The notes under the pieces were generated by a model. That model worked only from the letters and a program-made list of their open reading frames with translations, searched no databases and was not told where the DNA came from. A stretch of 64,000 bases of DNA from Oleiphilus sp. (GTDB taxonomy: Bacteria; Pseudomonadota; Gammaproteobacteria; Pseudomonadales; Oleiphilaceae). Each line of letters begins with the position of its first letter. Position 1 is the stretch's first letter. Positions 24,325 to 28,684 of this stretch are shown piece by piece. The translations under genes were made by a program, and so were the position numbers. The stretch lies in contig PZPK01000014.1 of NCBI GenBank assembly GCA_006212045.1, positions 1 to 64,000 on the forward strand. Direction: 5' to 3'.

Positions 24325-24711
24325 ATGAGCAACAAGTCCATTATTCAGACCTCCGATGCACCTGCTGCAATCGGCACTTACTCTCAGGCCGTCAAAGCGG
24401 GCGACACCATTTACCTTTCGGGCCAGATCCCTTTGGACCCACAAAGCATGAAACTCGTCAGCGGCGAGATAGATCTTCAGATCAAGCAAGTATTCGAAAA
24501 CCTGAAAGCCGTGTGCGATGCTGCAGGCGGTAGCATTCAGGACATCGTCAAGCTCAACATCTACCTGACAGATCTCGATAATTTCGCTACGGTTAACGAG
24601 ATTATGGCCACTGTTTTCGAAACGCCTTATCCGGCCCGTGCCGCCATTGGCGTATCGGCATTACCAAAAGGTGCCGGCGTCGAAATGGACGGTATTATGG
24701 TGCTGAGTTAG
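24325..24711 (+). CDS. ridA: Enamine/imine deaminase RidA
   Basis: The 128-residue RidA (YjgF/UK114) protein deaminates reactive enamines such as 2-aminoacrylate produced by PLP enzymes. Signatures: [60 protein letters not shown] and [24 protein letters not shown], which includes the key Arg. It follows spoT by 137 bases, a common neighbour. Confidence 0.95.
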
Positions 24712-24723
24712 TAGCGATCGAAA

Positions 24724-25581
24724 CTAACTTTGCGATTCCGGGCTCAACTTTCGGTACCCCTCGCGATAACTGGGATAGCGCAAACGGTACCCCGTAGACA
24801 GCATTCTGTGATTATTGCAGCGCTTGTTTCCCGCCCGTCTTCTCACCGGTAATTTGCCAGTTGCCAACGCCAAGTCGTTTTCAGTCGCAATAAACCTCAG
24901 CACCTCATTCATTTCCACCGGACAACTGTCGGTCGCCAGGTAACAGCTATCCAGCTCAACCCCCTGAATCGACAGGCTGATCAAGTGCAGTAGAAAGCCG
25001 ACACAGTCATCTTCATGGATACGGTTCGTCAAATGCATGCCCGGCGCTAGCGCACGATCACCCGTACGCACCTGCTCAATCAGCTTGCTGCGCCCGCCAC
25101 CGTAAATGCCGCTAAAGCGCACACAGGTGCTTTTGATATCGCTGCCAGATAACAAGGCCTCGGCTTCCAGCAGGATTTGACCCGCAAAAGTGGCGGGTTG
25201 AGTGGCCGAACTTTCATCCACGACCGAGCCATCATCCTGATGATAAACACTGGTACTGGAAACAAAGATCAGTCGCCTGGGTTGTGATCCGGTACGCAAC
25301 GCTGTCAGCACATTCCCCAGACCCGTCACAAACGTTGCCCGGTATGCCGCCTCTTCCCGCCGGCCAGGGCTCAGACAGTACACAACAATGTCCGGATCTG
25401 TCGGCATTTGCGCTGACAGCTCTTCCGGTTTACATACATCTACCTGCCGGTAGTCCATGTCCGGCCCGGTCACCCGAGCAGACCTTGCCATCGCCCAAAC
25501 CTTGTATTGGCCAGCCAAAGCCATTGCCGCCCGGGAGGCAATTTTCCCGTAACCAATAAAGAGAATACTCGGGTCCTGCAT
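24724..25581 (-). CDS. NAD(P)-binding SDR-type epimerase (YeeZ-like)
   Basis: The 285-residue extended short-chain dehydrogenase-like protein has an altered dinucleotide loop (LFIGYGKIASRAAMAL), a DMDYRQVDVC strand, RLIFVSSTSVYHQDDGSVVDESS (active-site Ser and Tyr) and CVRFSGIYGGGRSKLI. It resembles E. coli YeeZ and the homologue near oxyR in Pseudomonas. The substrate is unknown. It converges with ridA 12 bases away and is divergent from oxyR. Confidence 0.8.
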   Translation of the reverse strand: MQDPSILFIGYGKIASRAAMALAGQYKVWAMARSARVTGPDMDYRQVDVCKPEELSAQMPTDPDIVVYCLSPGRREEAAYRATFVTGLGNVLTALRTGSQPRRLIFVSSTSVYHQDDGSVVDESSATQPATFAGQILLEAEALLSGSDIKSTCVRFSGIYGGGRSKLIEQVRTGDRALAPGMHLTNRIHEDDCVGFLLHLISLSIQGVELDSCYLATDSCPVEMNEVLRFIATENDLALATGKLPVRRRAGNKRCNNHRMLSTGYRLRYPSYREGYRKLSPESQS

Positions 25582-25665: not shown

Positions 25666-26607
25666 ATGACGCTCACCGAACTACGCTACATTGTGATGCT
25701 GGCTCAGGAAAAGCATTTCGGAAAAGCCGCCGAGCGTTGCTACGTCAGCCAGCCGACACTCAGTGTTGCTGTCAAAAAGCTTGAAGACGAACTGGGCATG
25801 CCTTTGTTTGAACGACACAAGGGCAATATCAGTGTCACGGACCTAGGCCAGCGATTGGTGCAGCAAGCCCAGAATATTCTGGACCAGGTCAGTATTTTCA
25901 AGGATATGGCCAAAGAAGGTCAGCAACAACTAAATTATCCGTTCAAGCTTGGTGCCATCTATACCATTGGCCCCTATTTATTTCCGCATTTAATGCCTCA
26001 GCTCAACAGTATCGCGCCAGACATGCCACTCTATATCGAGGAAAACTATACGGCGGTACTGAAACGCAAGCTAAAAGAATGCGAGCTGGATGCCATTATC
26101 ATTGCATTACCCTTCGAAGAGCCGGATGTGGTGACCCTGCCCATCTATGATGAACCCTTTGTTGTAGTGCTGCCCAAGGGCCACCATCTGTGCCGGCACC
26201 GGCACATCGAAGCGCACATGCTGAGCGAGGATAACCTGCTGATGCTCGGACCGGGTCACTGCTTTCGGGACCAGGTGCTGGACACCAACCCGACGCTAAA
26301 AAACCTGATGAATCCGTCACGTCCGGGTGCCAACAAGCCTTTAATGACAGAGGGCAGCTCATTGGAAACGATTCGCCATATGGTGGCTTCTGGCTTTGGT
26401 ATCAGTGTACTTCCGATGTCGGCCATGCTCGCAAGCCCGGACCACGCACAACAGATCGAAGTCAGACACTTCAAGTCTCCCGCACCTTTCAGAACAGTGG
26501 CGCTGGCCTGGCGAGTCACCTTTCCCCGACCAAAAGCGATCGAAACTGTAAAACAAAGCATTCAACACTGCCGGGTTTTAGAAGAACCCGTCCCCGCCGA
26601 CACGTAA
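25666..26607 (+). CDS. oxyR: OxyR-like LysR-family redox regulator lacking the resolving cysteine
   Basis: The 313-residue protein has the OxyR winged-helix domain (MTLTELRYIVMLAQEKHFGKAAERCYVSQPTLSVAVKKLE) and the regulatory domain. The peroxide-sensing Cys199 is present (MLGPGHCFRDQVLD, at exactly residue 199), but position 208, the resolving Cys that forms the disulfide in E. coli and Pseudomonas OxyR, is Asn (codon AAC; LDTNP instead of LEACP). Cys25, Cys139 and Cys176 remain. The start at 25666 is chosen by domain fit; the open frame to 25507 is not supported. recG follows after 4 bases. Identity as OxyR by homology is secure; redox mechanism is uncertain. Confidence 0.9.
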   Translation: MTLTELRYIVMLAQEKHFGKAAERCYVSQPTLSVAVKKLEDELGMPLFERHKGNISVTDLGQRLVQQAQNILDQVSIFKDMAKEGQQQLNYPFKLGAIYTIGPYLFPHLMPQLNSIAPDMPLYIEENYTAVLKRKLKECELDAIIIALPFEEPDVVTLPIYDEPFVVVLPKGHHLCRHRHIEAHMLSEDNLLMLGPGHCFRDQVLDTNPTLKNLMNPSRPGANKPLMTEGSSLETIRHMVASGFGISVLPMSAMLASPDHAQQIEVRHFKSPAPFRTVALAWRVTFPRPKAIETVKQSIQHCRVLEEPVPADT

Positions 26608-26611
26608 TGCC

Positions 26612-28684
26612 ATGACGCGTCTGGACGAAATACCACTCACGCAATTGAAAGGCGTTGGCGAAAAGCTGGCGCAAACCCTTTCAAAACTGGACATTTTTTC
26701 CGTGCAGGATTTACTGTTTCACCTGCCGTATCGCTATGAGGATCGCACCCGCATCGTCCCTCTGAACCAGTTTCGTCCGCAAATGCCGGGGCTGTTTGAA
26801 GCCAGCATCGTCAGCCACCGGGTTGTTTATGGCAGGCGTCGCAGCCTGGAAGTGATCGTTGAAGATAGCACCGGCGCAGTGACGCTCCGTTTCTATCATT
26901 TTTCTGCCGCACAGACCCGGCAACTTGAAACTGGCCAATCAATCCGCGCGTTTGGTGAAGCAAGGCTGGGCAAAAACGGCATCGAGTTCTACCACCCGGA
27001 ATACAGCCTGATCACCAGTGCCGACAAACATGAAATCCCTGACCGTCTGACGCCGTTGTATCCGCTCACAGAAGGCATTCAGCAGCCCCGCATGCGCGCC
27101 ATCTGCCAACAGGCAATACAGTGGCTGGATCGCGCACAAGTCAATGAGTTACTGCCAACCAGGGTACTTGAGTTACTCCAGTTACCCGAGCTGAATACCG
27201 CCCTGCGATTTCTGCATCAGCCCCCCACAGATGCCGACCAGCAAGCCTTGCTGGAGGGCCGACACCGCTGTCAGCAACGATTAATCGTGGAAGAGTTGTT
27301 GGCACATCATTTAAGCCTGTTAAAACTGCGGCACAGCATTCGCAGTCACACGGCTCTGGCATGCAAGCTTTCAGACAATGCCCTTGCGCTGCGCCAGCAC
27401 TTTCTAGAGGCATTGCCGTTCGCACTAACCTCGGCACAAGAGCGTGTGCAACAGGAAATAAGCAACGACCTGCAACACCCCGTACCAATGCTTCGTCTGG
27501 TACAAGGCGACGTCGGTTCCGGTAAAACAGTGCTGGCGGCGCTGGCGGCTTTGCAGGCATGCGGGGCTGGCGCACAAGTCGCTCTGATGGCTCCGACAGA
27601 AATTCTGGCCGAACAACACTATCAGAACTTTGCCGCCTGGTTAGCGGACCAACCGGTCCGGCTGGCCTGGTTGGGCGGCAAGACCAAAGGCACGCAACGC
27701 AAGAACGTATTGAATGACGTTCGTGCCGGAGACGTGGATATTGTGATTGGAACACATGCTCTGTTCCAGGACGATGTCATCTTCCACAAACTCGCGCTGG
27801 CGATCATCGATGAACAGCATCGCTTTGGTGTCCACCAGCGATTGGCGCTGAAGGATAAAGGCCGCAATGCGGGACTGGTTCCCCACCAGCTCATCATGAC
27901 CGCTACCCCAATTCCCCGCACGCTCGCCATGAGTGCCTATGCAGACCTGGACACTTCCGTCATCGATGAATTGCCGCCAGGTCGGCAATCAATTGAAACC
28001 TTTGTCATTCCCGACACGCGAAGGCAGGAAATGCTGGAGAGAGTCAGGACGATCTGTCAGTCCGGCGACCAGGCTTACTGGGTTTGCACGTTGATTGAAG
28101 ATTCCGAAAGCCTGCAATGCCAAGCCGCAGAAGACACGGCGGCATGGCTGTCAGAGTCTCTTTCGGAGCTGGCAATCGGGCTTGTGCATGGTCGAATGAA
28201 GGCACAGGACAAGGCCCTGATGATGGAGGCATTTGTTGCCGGAAAACTGGATCTGCTGGTCGCCACAACGGTGATCGAAGTCGGTGTGGATGTGCCGAAT
28301 GCCAGCCTGATCGTGATCGAAAATCCGGAACGACTGGGACTCGCCCAGCTACACCAGCTGCGGGGCCGCGTTGGCCGGGGAGAAAAACAGAGTTACTGCG
28401 CGTTGATGTACCACCCCCCGCTCTCGGTCAATGGCAAGGCTCGTCTACAGGTGATGCGCGAAAGTAATGACGGTTTTGTCATTGCTGAAAAAGACCTGGA
28501 ATTGCGCGGCCCCGGCGAAGTCCTGGGCACCAAACAAACCGGGCTGGTTGATTTCAGAATAGCCGACCTGCAAAGAGACAAGCACTGGCTTGAGCAGATC
28601 AAAACCATCGCCCCCATGATTTCAAACCCTCAGGCTTTGATCGATCGCTGGGTTGGTCAGGGCGAGAAATACGCGGAAGTTTAG
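26612..28684 (+). CDS. recG: ATP-dependent DNA helicase RecG
   Basis: The 690-residue helicase remodels stalled replication forks and branched DNA. The N-terminal wedge/OB domain (residues 1-150, YEDRTRIVPLNQF) is followed by helicase motifs: LVQGDVGSGKTVLAALAAL (Walker A), MAPTEILAEQHYQNF (Ia), IIDEQHRFGVHQR (II, DEQH as in RecG), MTATPIPRTLA (III) and VIEVGVDVPNASLIVIENPERLGLAQLHQLRGRVGRG (V/VI). Full length. It is coupled to oxyR (4-base gap), an arrangement also seen in Pseudomonas. Confidence 0.97.
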   Translation: MTRLDEIPLTQLKGVGEKLAQTLSKLDIFSVQDLLFHLPYRYEDRTRIVPLNQFRPQMPGLFEASIVSHRVVYGRRRSLEVIVEDSTGAVTLRFYHFSAAQTRQLETGQSIRAFGEARLGKNGIEFYHPEYSLITSADKHEIPDRLTPLYPLTEGIQQPRMRAICQQAIQWLDRAQVNELLPTRVLELLQLPELNTALRFLHQPPTDADQQALLEGRHRCQQRLIVEELLAHHLSLLKLRHSIRSHTALACKLSDNALALRQHFLEALPFALTSAQERVQQEISNDLQHPVPMLRLVQGDVGSGKTVLAALAALQACGAGAQVALMAPTEILAEQHYQNFAAWLADQPVRLAWLGGKTKGTQRKNVLNDVRAGDVDIVIGTHALFQDDVIFHKLALAIIDEQHRFGVHQRLALKDKGRNAGLVPHQLIMTATPIPRTLAMSAYADLDTSVIDELPPGRQSIETFVIPDTRRQEMLERVRTICQSGDQAYWVCTLIEDSESLQCQAAEDTAAWLSESLSELAIGLVHGRMKAQDKALMMEAFVAGKLDLLVATTVIEVGVDVPNASLIVIENPERLGLAQLHQLRGRVGRGEKQSYCALMYHPPLSVNGKARLQVMRESNDGFVIAEKDLELRGPGEVLGTKQTGLVDFRIADLQRDKHWLEQIKTIAPMISNPQALIDRWVGQGEKYAEV

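Follow-up and report, generated by a model that had tools for sequence, protein, structure and literature searches.

The recG-linked OxyR encoded in the window (the whole stretch of 64,000 nucleotides of an Oleiphilus sp. contig that was analysed) retains the peroxidatic cysteine, Cys199, and carries asparagine in place of the resolving cysteine, Cys208. Alignments show Cys199 and the peroxide pocket intact with Cys208 gone, and the loss is placed about ten times on a tree of OxyR from the order. The favoured reading is that the window protein is a functional OxyR turned into a '1-Cys' sensor that would signal through Cys199 alone; this is given about an even chance.

The gene lies at 25666..26607 on the + strand (open reading frame 25666-26604, then the stop), and encodes, from the start at 25666, an OxyR of 313 residues that contains GHCFRDQVLDTN. 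Sequence and fold both place the protein in the OxyR family. The best PDB match by sequence is an OxyR (E 5e-111), as is the best by fold (Foldseek), with 58% identity to Pseudomonas aeruginosa OxyR 4x6g_A over the Foldseek alignment, and the top NCBIfam model is OxyR (PRK11151), at 231 bits, under the model's cut-off of 329. Cys199 is present together with the pocket residues Thr100, Thr129 and His198, and the full list of cysteines is 25, 139, 176, 199 and 302. The codon of Cys199 is TGC (26260..26262, + strand) and that of Asn208 is AAC (26287..26289, + strand). Residues 199-208 align without gaps to P. aeruginosa OxyR (4y0m) in phmmer, with Asn208 opposite Cys, so that both residue assignments of the sequence-only reading are confirmed by translation and alignment; past 208, its loop exceeds that of P. 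aeruginosa OxyR by about six residues. In the canonical two-Cys arrangement Cys208 lies nine residues past Cys199. As Cys208 is missing here, the canonical Cys199-Cys208 disulfide is impossible for the encoded protein, and the disulfide-driven switch is unavailable to it, as had been proposed.

The frame is open and recG (26612..28684, + strand) begins 4 bp downstream, in agreement with the earlier description of an intact gene coupled to recG. The same arrangement, with recG 3' of oxyR on the same strand, is found in 24/24 loci tested. On the other side, the upstream landmark of the locus is a gene that we take to be RidA-like (24325..24711, + strand), followed by one that is presumably NAD-dependent epimerase-like (24724..25581, - strand) and divergent from oxyR, giving the order RidA-like, epimerase-like, oxyR, recG. 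A consensus scan for an OxyR box at the genome's own katG, in the ahpC-oxyR2 intergenic stretch and upstream of oxyR gave scores at the level of shuffles. katG was detected in the window genome (G000), G003, G004 and G012, and was not found in G001, G002 or G031.

A base-calling error at codon 208 is very unlikely, because TGY and AAY differ at two bases and because G003 of the same genus, the nearest relative found (L015, 75% identical OxyR), also has Asn208 encoded by AAC. Nor does this strain alone differ in a degraded gene, the other outcome that would have undone the sequence-only reading, as G003 shares Asn208 and G001, also of the genus, has Tyr208; G002 of the same genus has Cys208. 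The protein of L040, from an 'uncultured Oleiphilus' MAG, is identical to that of G001 (L018). A recG-type OxyR was not found in G004, a further member of the genus. At its locus (L347:111-3582) the RidA-like and epimerase-like genes and recG are all present, with no oxyR between the last two, and the sole OxyR found in this genome is the ahpC-linked one.

Residue 208 was surveyed in 302 OxyR-like sequences sampled from the family and order, 301 of which cover the site; these represent only part of the 390 genomes of the order and are mostly the best-scoring ones. Position 199 is Cys in all 301. At position 208, 255 sequences have Cys and 46 (one of these a duplicate) have something else, namely Leu in 22, Val in 5, Phe in 5, Met in 4, Ser in 3, Asn in 2, Tyr in 2 (one a duplicate), Asp in 2 and His in 1. 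The ratio 46/301 overstates the frequency of one-Cys forms, because late sampling was aimed at groups in which they had already been seen; before this targeted sampling, 21/166 recG-type sequences were one-Cys. A separate set of 80 loci, mostly from Marinobacter, Pseudomonas and Stutzerimonas and overlapping in genomes with the rest of the sample, has Cys208 in 79 and a non-Cys residue in 1. Val208 is found in 5/5 species of genus g9, Phe208 in five genomes of genus g12, and Leu or Met208 in 24/26 matches from family f41, where the exceptions are L343 (38% identical and perhaps of another type) and L336 (outside the f41 clade, on a long and unsure branch). Within f41, 35/61 genomes gave no match to the window-type OxyR at E<=1e-58. 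Judged from these alignments, loss of Cys208 is not peculiar to the window protein. Asn208 itself, which the earlier reading had suggested checking for a clade-wide distribution, is shared by the nearest relative and seen in two species only.

The number of losses was estimated from a tree of 123 sequences, built from the protein's own columns without column 208 and with partial resolution of the deeper branches. One-Cys sequences were thinned at 95% identity and most two-Cys ones at 84%. This thinning can inflate the steps counted at column 208, where interchanges among non-Cys residues also count, but not the number of Cys/non-Cys changes. The Cys/non-Cys label changes 10 times on this tree, with 9 changes forced by the starred branches and a bootstrap 5%-95% range of 10-10. 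A quick tree made earlier, which this one supersedes, likewise had 10, of which 7 were forced. The changes are read as putative losses because the outgroup sequences and most of the tree have Cys. They fall in the window genus (Asn/Tyr), g9 (Val), the g12 clade (Phe), G031 (Ser), G027 (Ser), G277 (Leu), G282 (Ser), family f41 (Leu/Met), f42 (Asp/His) and G248 (Met). In the sampled order, Cys208 thus seems to have been lost on about ten occasions, with Cys199 retained every time. Parsimony over the 121 ingroup sequences gives 0 steps at positions 199, 25, 129, 197 and 276, 1 step at 100 and 198, 19 at 302, and 14 at 208 vs a median of 15 over 299 columns. Within the sample, therefore, position 208 appears to vary about as often as a typical column, with the peroxidatic cysteine invariant.

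Conservation around the reactive site was counted in 288 recG-type sequences (45 one-Cys, 243 two-Cys), leaving out nine of <45% identity (L002, L158-L160, L162-L164, L272, L343), the duplicate L040 and the partial sequences L156, L157, L161 and L273. Thr129 of the peroxide pocket (26050..26052, + strand), Gly197, Cys199 and Arg276 are invariant, as is Cys25 of the DNA-binding domain (25738..25740, + strand). Thr100 (25963..25965, + strand), which we take to be a residue of the peroxide pocket, is Thr in 44/45 one-Cys and 243/243 two-Cys sequences. The pocket residue His198 (26257..26259, + strand), which adjoins Cys199, is His in 44/45 and 239/243, respectively, and Asn in the other five, all from genus g7 (L023, L146, L148, L149, L151; four with Cys208, one with Ser208). 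Arg201 is changed in 10/45 one-Cys sequences, nine of these being Arg201Gly in genus g56, vs 2/243 two-Cys sequences. The g56 OxyRs concerned, from family f41 (L261, L320, L321, L322, L335, L337, L339, L341, L342), combine Leu208 with Gly201 and Arg205 (GHCFGDQVR), a further alteration of the helix past Cys199.

Among a few hand-picked pairs, the comparison of which is no formal test, dN/dS is 0.011-0.125 in the 13/15 one-Cys pairs with unsaturated dS and 0.005-0.032 in four two-Cys pairs (2/6 saturated). The one mixed pair is saturated, and the Asn208 pair is among the two one-Cys pairs with saturated dS and so gives no usable dN/dS. These values indicate strong purifying selection on OxyR, with a hint of slight relaxation in one-Cys forms. 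The Arg201 changes and the higher one-Cys dN/dS together hint at relaxation in some lineages.

If the window protein is a Cys199-only sensor, H2O2 (or sulfane sulfur) would still attack Cys199, and the oxidised cysteine would not be tied up in a disulfide to residue 208 of the same chain. The active form would be Cys199-SOH, Cys199 with a small-thiol cap (a glutathione mixed disulfide) or a persulfide, and this single-site change would move the 199-207 helix region and the tetramer. A gshA gene (glutamate-cysteine ligase family) is present in 26/26 one-Cys genomes searched, so glutathione is likely to be available in them. A Cys199-only switch is the likeliest reading, given a reactive site kept through the ten apparent losses, the presence of gshA, and two published observations: Cys199 of P. 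aeruginosa OxyR is reported to be persulfidated in vivo, in what is termed a 'single-Cys activated state' (PMC13295329), and a precedent exists in a Deinococcus one-cysteine OxyR reported to act via sulfenic acid (PMC2225504). Also in its favour are the low dN/dS of the one-Cys pairs, the 17/21 one-Cys genomes in which no second OxyR was detected, and the reported behaviour of P. aeruginosa mutants, of which C208A leaves basal katA/ahpC at the wild-type level and C199A lowers it (PMC13295329). The active signal in OxyR generally, disulfide vs Cys199-only modification, is described as disputed (PMC2881104, PMC6831875).

The canonical disulfide switch could be supplied in this strain by a second OxyR, of the E. 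coli type (L002, G000:C2:17659-18552), which is 33% identical and has both cysteines. It is divergent from ahpC and ahpF (L116:7146-10556, on G000:C2), and ahpC adjoins the E. coli-type oxyR in 7/9 loci tested, the window genome's own included. The two OxyRs of this strain would therefore probably split the work. A second OxyR was found in 4/21 one-Cys genomes (G000, G003, G293, G337); the other 17 gave none at E<=1e-30 with the E. coli-type query, and among the 21, G001 (85%) and G041 (68%) are clearly incomplete. In most of the other one-Cys genomes tested, then, the 1-Cys protein would sense alone. Two of eight two-Cys genomes also have a second OxyR, and three further genomes of the set have no recG-type OxyR. 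With 4/21 vs 2/8, a backup OxyR was rejected as a general explanation of Cys208 loss.

The strongest counter-evidence to a Cys199-only sensor is experimental. The C208A mutant of P. aeruginosa is reported to show no H2O2 response (PMC13295329). P. aeruginosa Cys208 mutants are termed locked repressors in another report (PMC8289212), and hypersensitivity to H2O2 is cited for C199S, C208S and C296S (PMC5101826). N. meningitidis C208A is described as repressing with no activation (PMC2881104), and E. coli C208S as no longer regulated by H2Sn (PMC6831875). That Cys199 is conserved is no proof of sensing, because Cys199 mutants are themselves abnormal in P. aeruginosa, N. meningitidis and E. coli. 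Also counting against the 1-Cys sensor are the higher one-Cys dN/dS, the Arg201 changes, the retention of Cys208 in 79/80 loci and the fact that no OxyR box stands out. The natural one-Cys proteins, however, have had time to adapt, and the engineered mutants had none.

The dilemma posed by the sequence-only reading, of a protein that senses differently or is locked in one state, is therefore a real one, as mutants lacking Cys208 are reported to be unresponsive or to repress only (PMC8289212, PMC13295329, PMC2881104). It is rather unlikely, and still a serious contender, that the window protein is locked in the reduced state, without peroxide activation, as a permanent repressor or basal activator, with the ahpCF-linked OxyR doing the sensing in this strain. 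The engineered mutants behave in this way, both Asn208 genomes (G000, G003) have a second two-Cys OxyR beside ahpC, and G004 has only the ahpC-linked gene. The AlphaFold2 model (mean pLDDT 83.6 from 26 sequences, with low confidence at about 211-230) shows an OxyR fold in which residues 199-207 form a helix, like the reduced form, and the next helix starts at 209, although one predicted state cannot decide between the readings. In reduced Neisseria OxyR, one helix reportedly has Cys199 at one end and Cys208 at the other, 18 A apart (PMC2881104), and the modelled 199-208 region appears close to this arrangement. P. aeruginosa OxyR ranks first in Foldseek, its reduced regulatory domain reaching a TM score (by target) of up to 0.90; the best 50 Foldseek rows include no oxidised regulatory domain alone, and hence the ranking holds no reduced-vs-oxidised comparison. 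Against a locked regulator, the 17/21 one-Cys genomes without a detected second OxyR would have to have lost OxyR peroxide sensing, in many lineages, and the checked pocket positions are equally conserved in one-Cys and two-Cys sequences, Arg201 excepted.

A relocated resolving cysteine, with Cys176, Cys139, Cys302, Cys25 or a second subunit as the partner of Cys199, is improbable. The partners named in the sequence-only reading (Cys25, Cys139 and Cys176) are all present, although that list omitted Cys302. Cys139 (26080..26082, + strand) and Cys176 (26191..26193, + strand) are both found in the two Asn208 proteins, which favours relocation. Cys139 occurs in 4/288 sequences, all from the window's genus, and appears to be no simple replacement for Cys208, because one of the four, L016, has both. 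Cys302, near the C-terminus (26569..26571, + strand), is found in only 19/45 one-Cys vs 221/243 two-Cys sequences. As for its possible role, the C-terminal cysteine of P. aeruginosa is the one changed in the hypersensitive C296S mutant (PMC5101826), but the Neisseria counterpart of Cys302 is said to face the opposite side (PMC2881104). Neither Cys302 nor Cys139 was accepted as a general substitute. Cysteine at 176 or 178 is in excess among one-Cys forms, with 9/21 vs 6/225 two-Cys sequences in the first set and 10/45 vs 6/243 in the larger one (Cys178 in L153, L154, L177, L180, L181, L182, L248 and L299; Cys176 in L001 and L015). Over independent pairs on the tree, however, Cys176-178 goes with the loss in a mean of 1.4/9 and against it in 0.1, too few pairs for significance, and it is absent from 23/24 one-Cys sequences added later, so that a general compensating cysteine at these positions was rejected. 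Furthermore, 5/45 one-Cys sequences have no cysteine past residue 60 except Cys199. For the window lineage, Cys176 as the relocated resolving cysteine is possible, with no significant phylogenetic support.

Decay of a redundant regulator, drifting once the second OxyR took over, is highly unlikely: the window genome does have a second OxyR and the recG-linked oxyR is missing from its locus in G004, but the frame is open, the recG linkage and the pocket residues of the window protein are kept, G003 shares Asn208 at 75% identity, and dN/dS is low in other one-Cys clades. Strain-specific decay was rejected as the main account for the same reasons.

H2O2 sensing by OxyR is conventionally explained by the Cys199-Cys208 disulfide, on which OxyR-derived H2O2 probes rest. 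With Cys208 apparently lost about ten times in nature, and Cys199 never within the sample, the one-Cys OxyRs are a ready-made set of proteins for testing the disputed signal, including the five whose only cysteine past residue 60 is Cys199 (e.g. L313, L340). If one-Cys OxyRs respond to peroxide, the disulfide is inessential to OxyR logic; if they do not, whole lineages are without canonical OxyR activation. More tentatively, with a chance somewhat short of even, the loss of Cys208 may be a recurrent and selected rewiring to a Cys199-only switch in about ten lineages, altering the signal read, its threshold or its duration. If so, the textbook disulfide would be one of several working modes of OxyR, and the rewired lineages would include nearly all recG-type OxyR read in family f41.

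An analogy to the window protein is seen in 1-Cys peroxiredoxins, which keep the peroxidatic cysteine and have lost the resolving one; these are enzymes and not transcription factors, and the likeness is one of analogy only. A literature search, with most subscription journals outside its reach, found no report of a natural OxyR of this order with Cys199 and without Cys208. The ahpCF-linked E. coli-type protein of the same genome belongs to the OxyR family and keeps the GHC motif, but is a two-Cys form, with its second cysteine nine residues past the first, at another locus and with 33% identity. P. aeruginosa OxyR (4x6g, 4y0m) is 58% identical to the window protein and shares the pocket, Cys25, Cys199 and a C-terminal cysteine; unlike the window protein it has Cys208, reported to be necessary for its H2O2 response (PMC13295329). 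Mycobacterial OxyS is likewise an OxyR-like LysR regulator whose cysteine mechanism departs from the canonical one, but is reported to act via Cys25 in the DNA-binding domain (PMC3260234). D. radiodurans DrOxyR, the published 1-Cys OxyR, resembles the window protein in having one cysteine of the pair and no intramolecular disulfide. However, DrOxyR is reported to retain the equivalent of Cys208 (Cys210; PMC2881104), whereas the window protein and its one-Cys relatives retain Cys199, and so do not belong to the Deinococcus type, in which only the Cys208 equivalent is present. The Cys199-only OxyR is thus a real and recurrent variant of a known regulator, and the one-Cys OxyR previously named in D. 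radiodurans is its reverse case.
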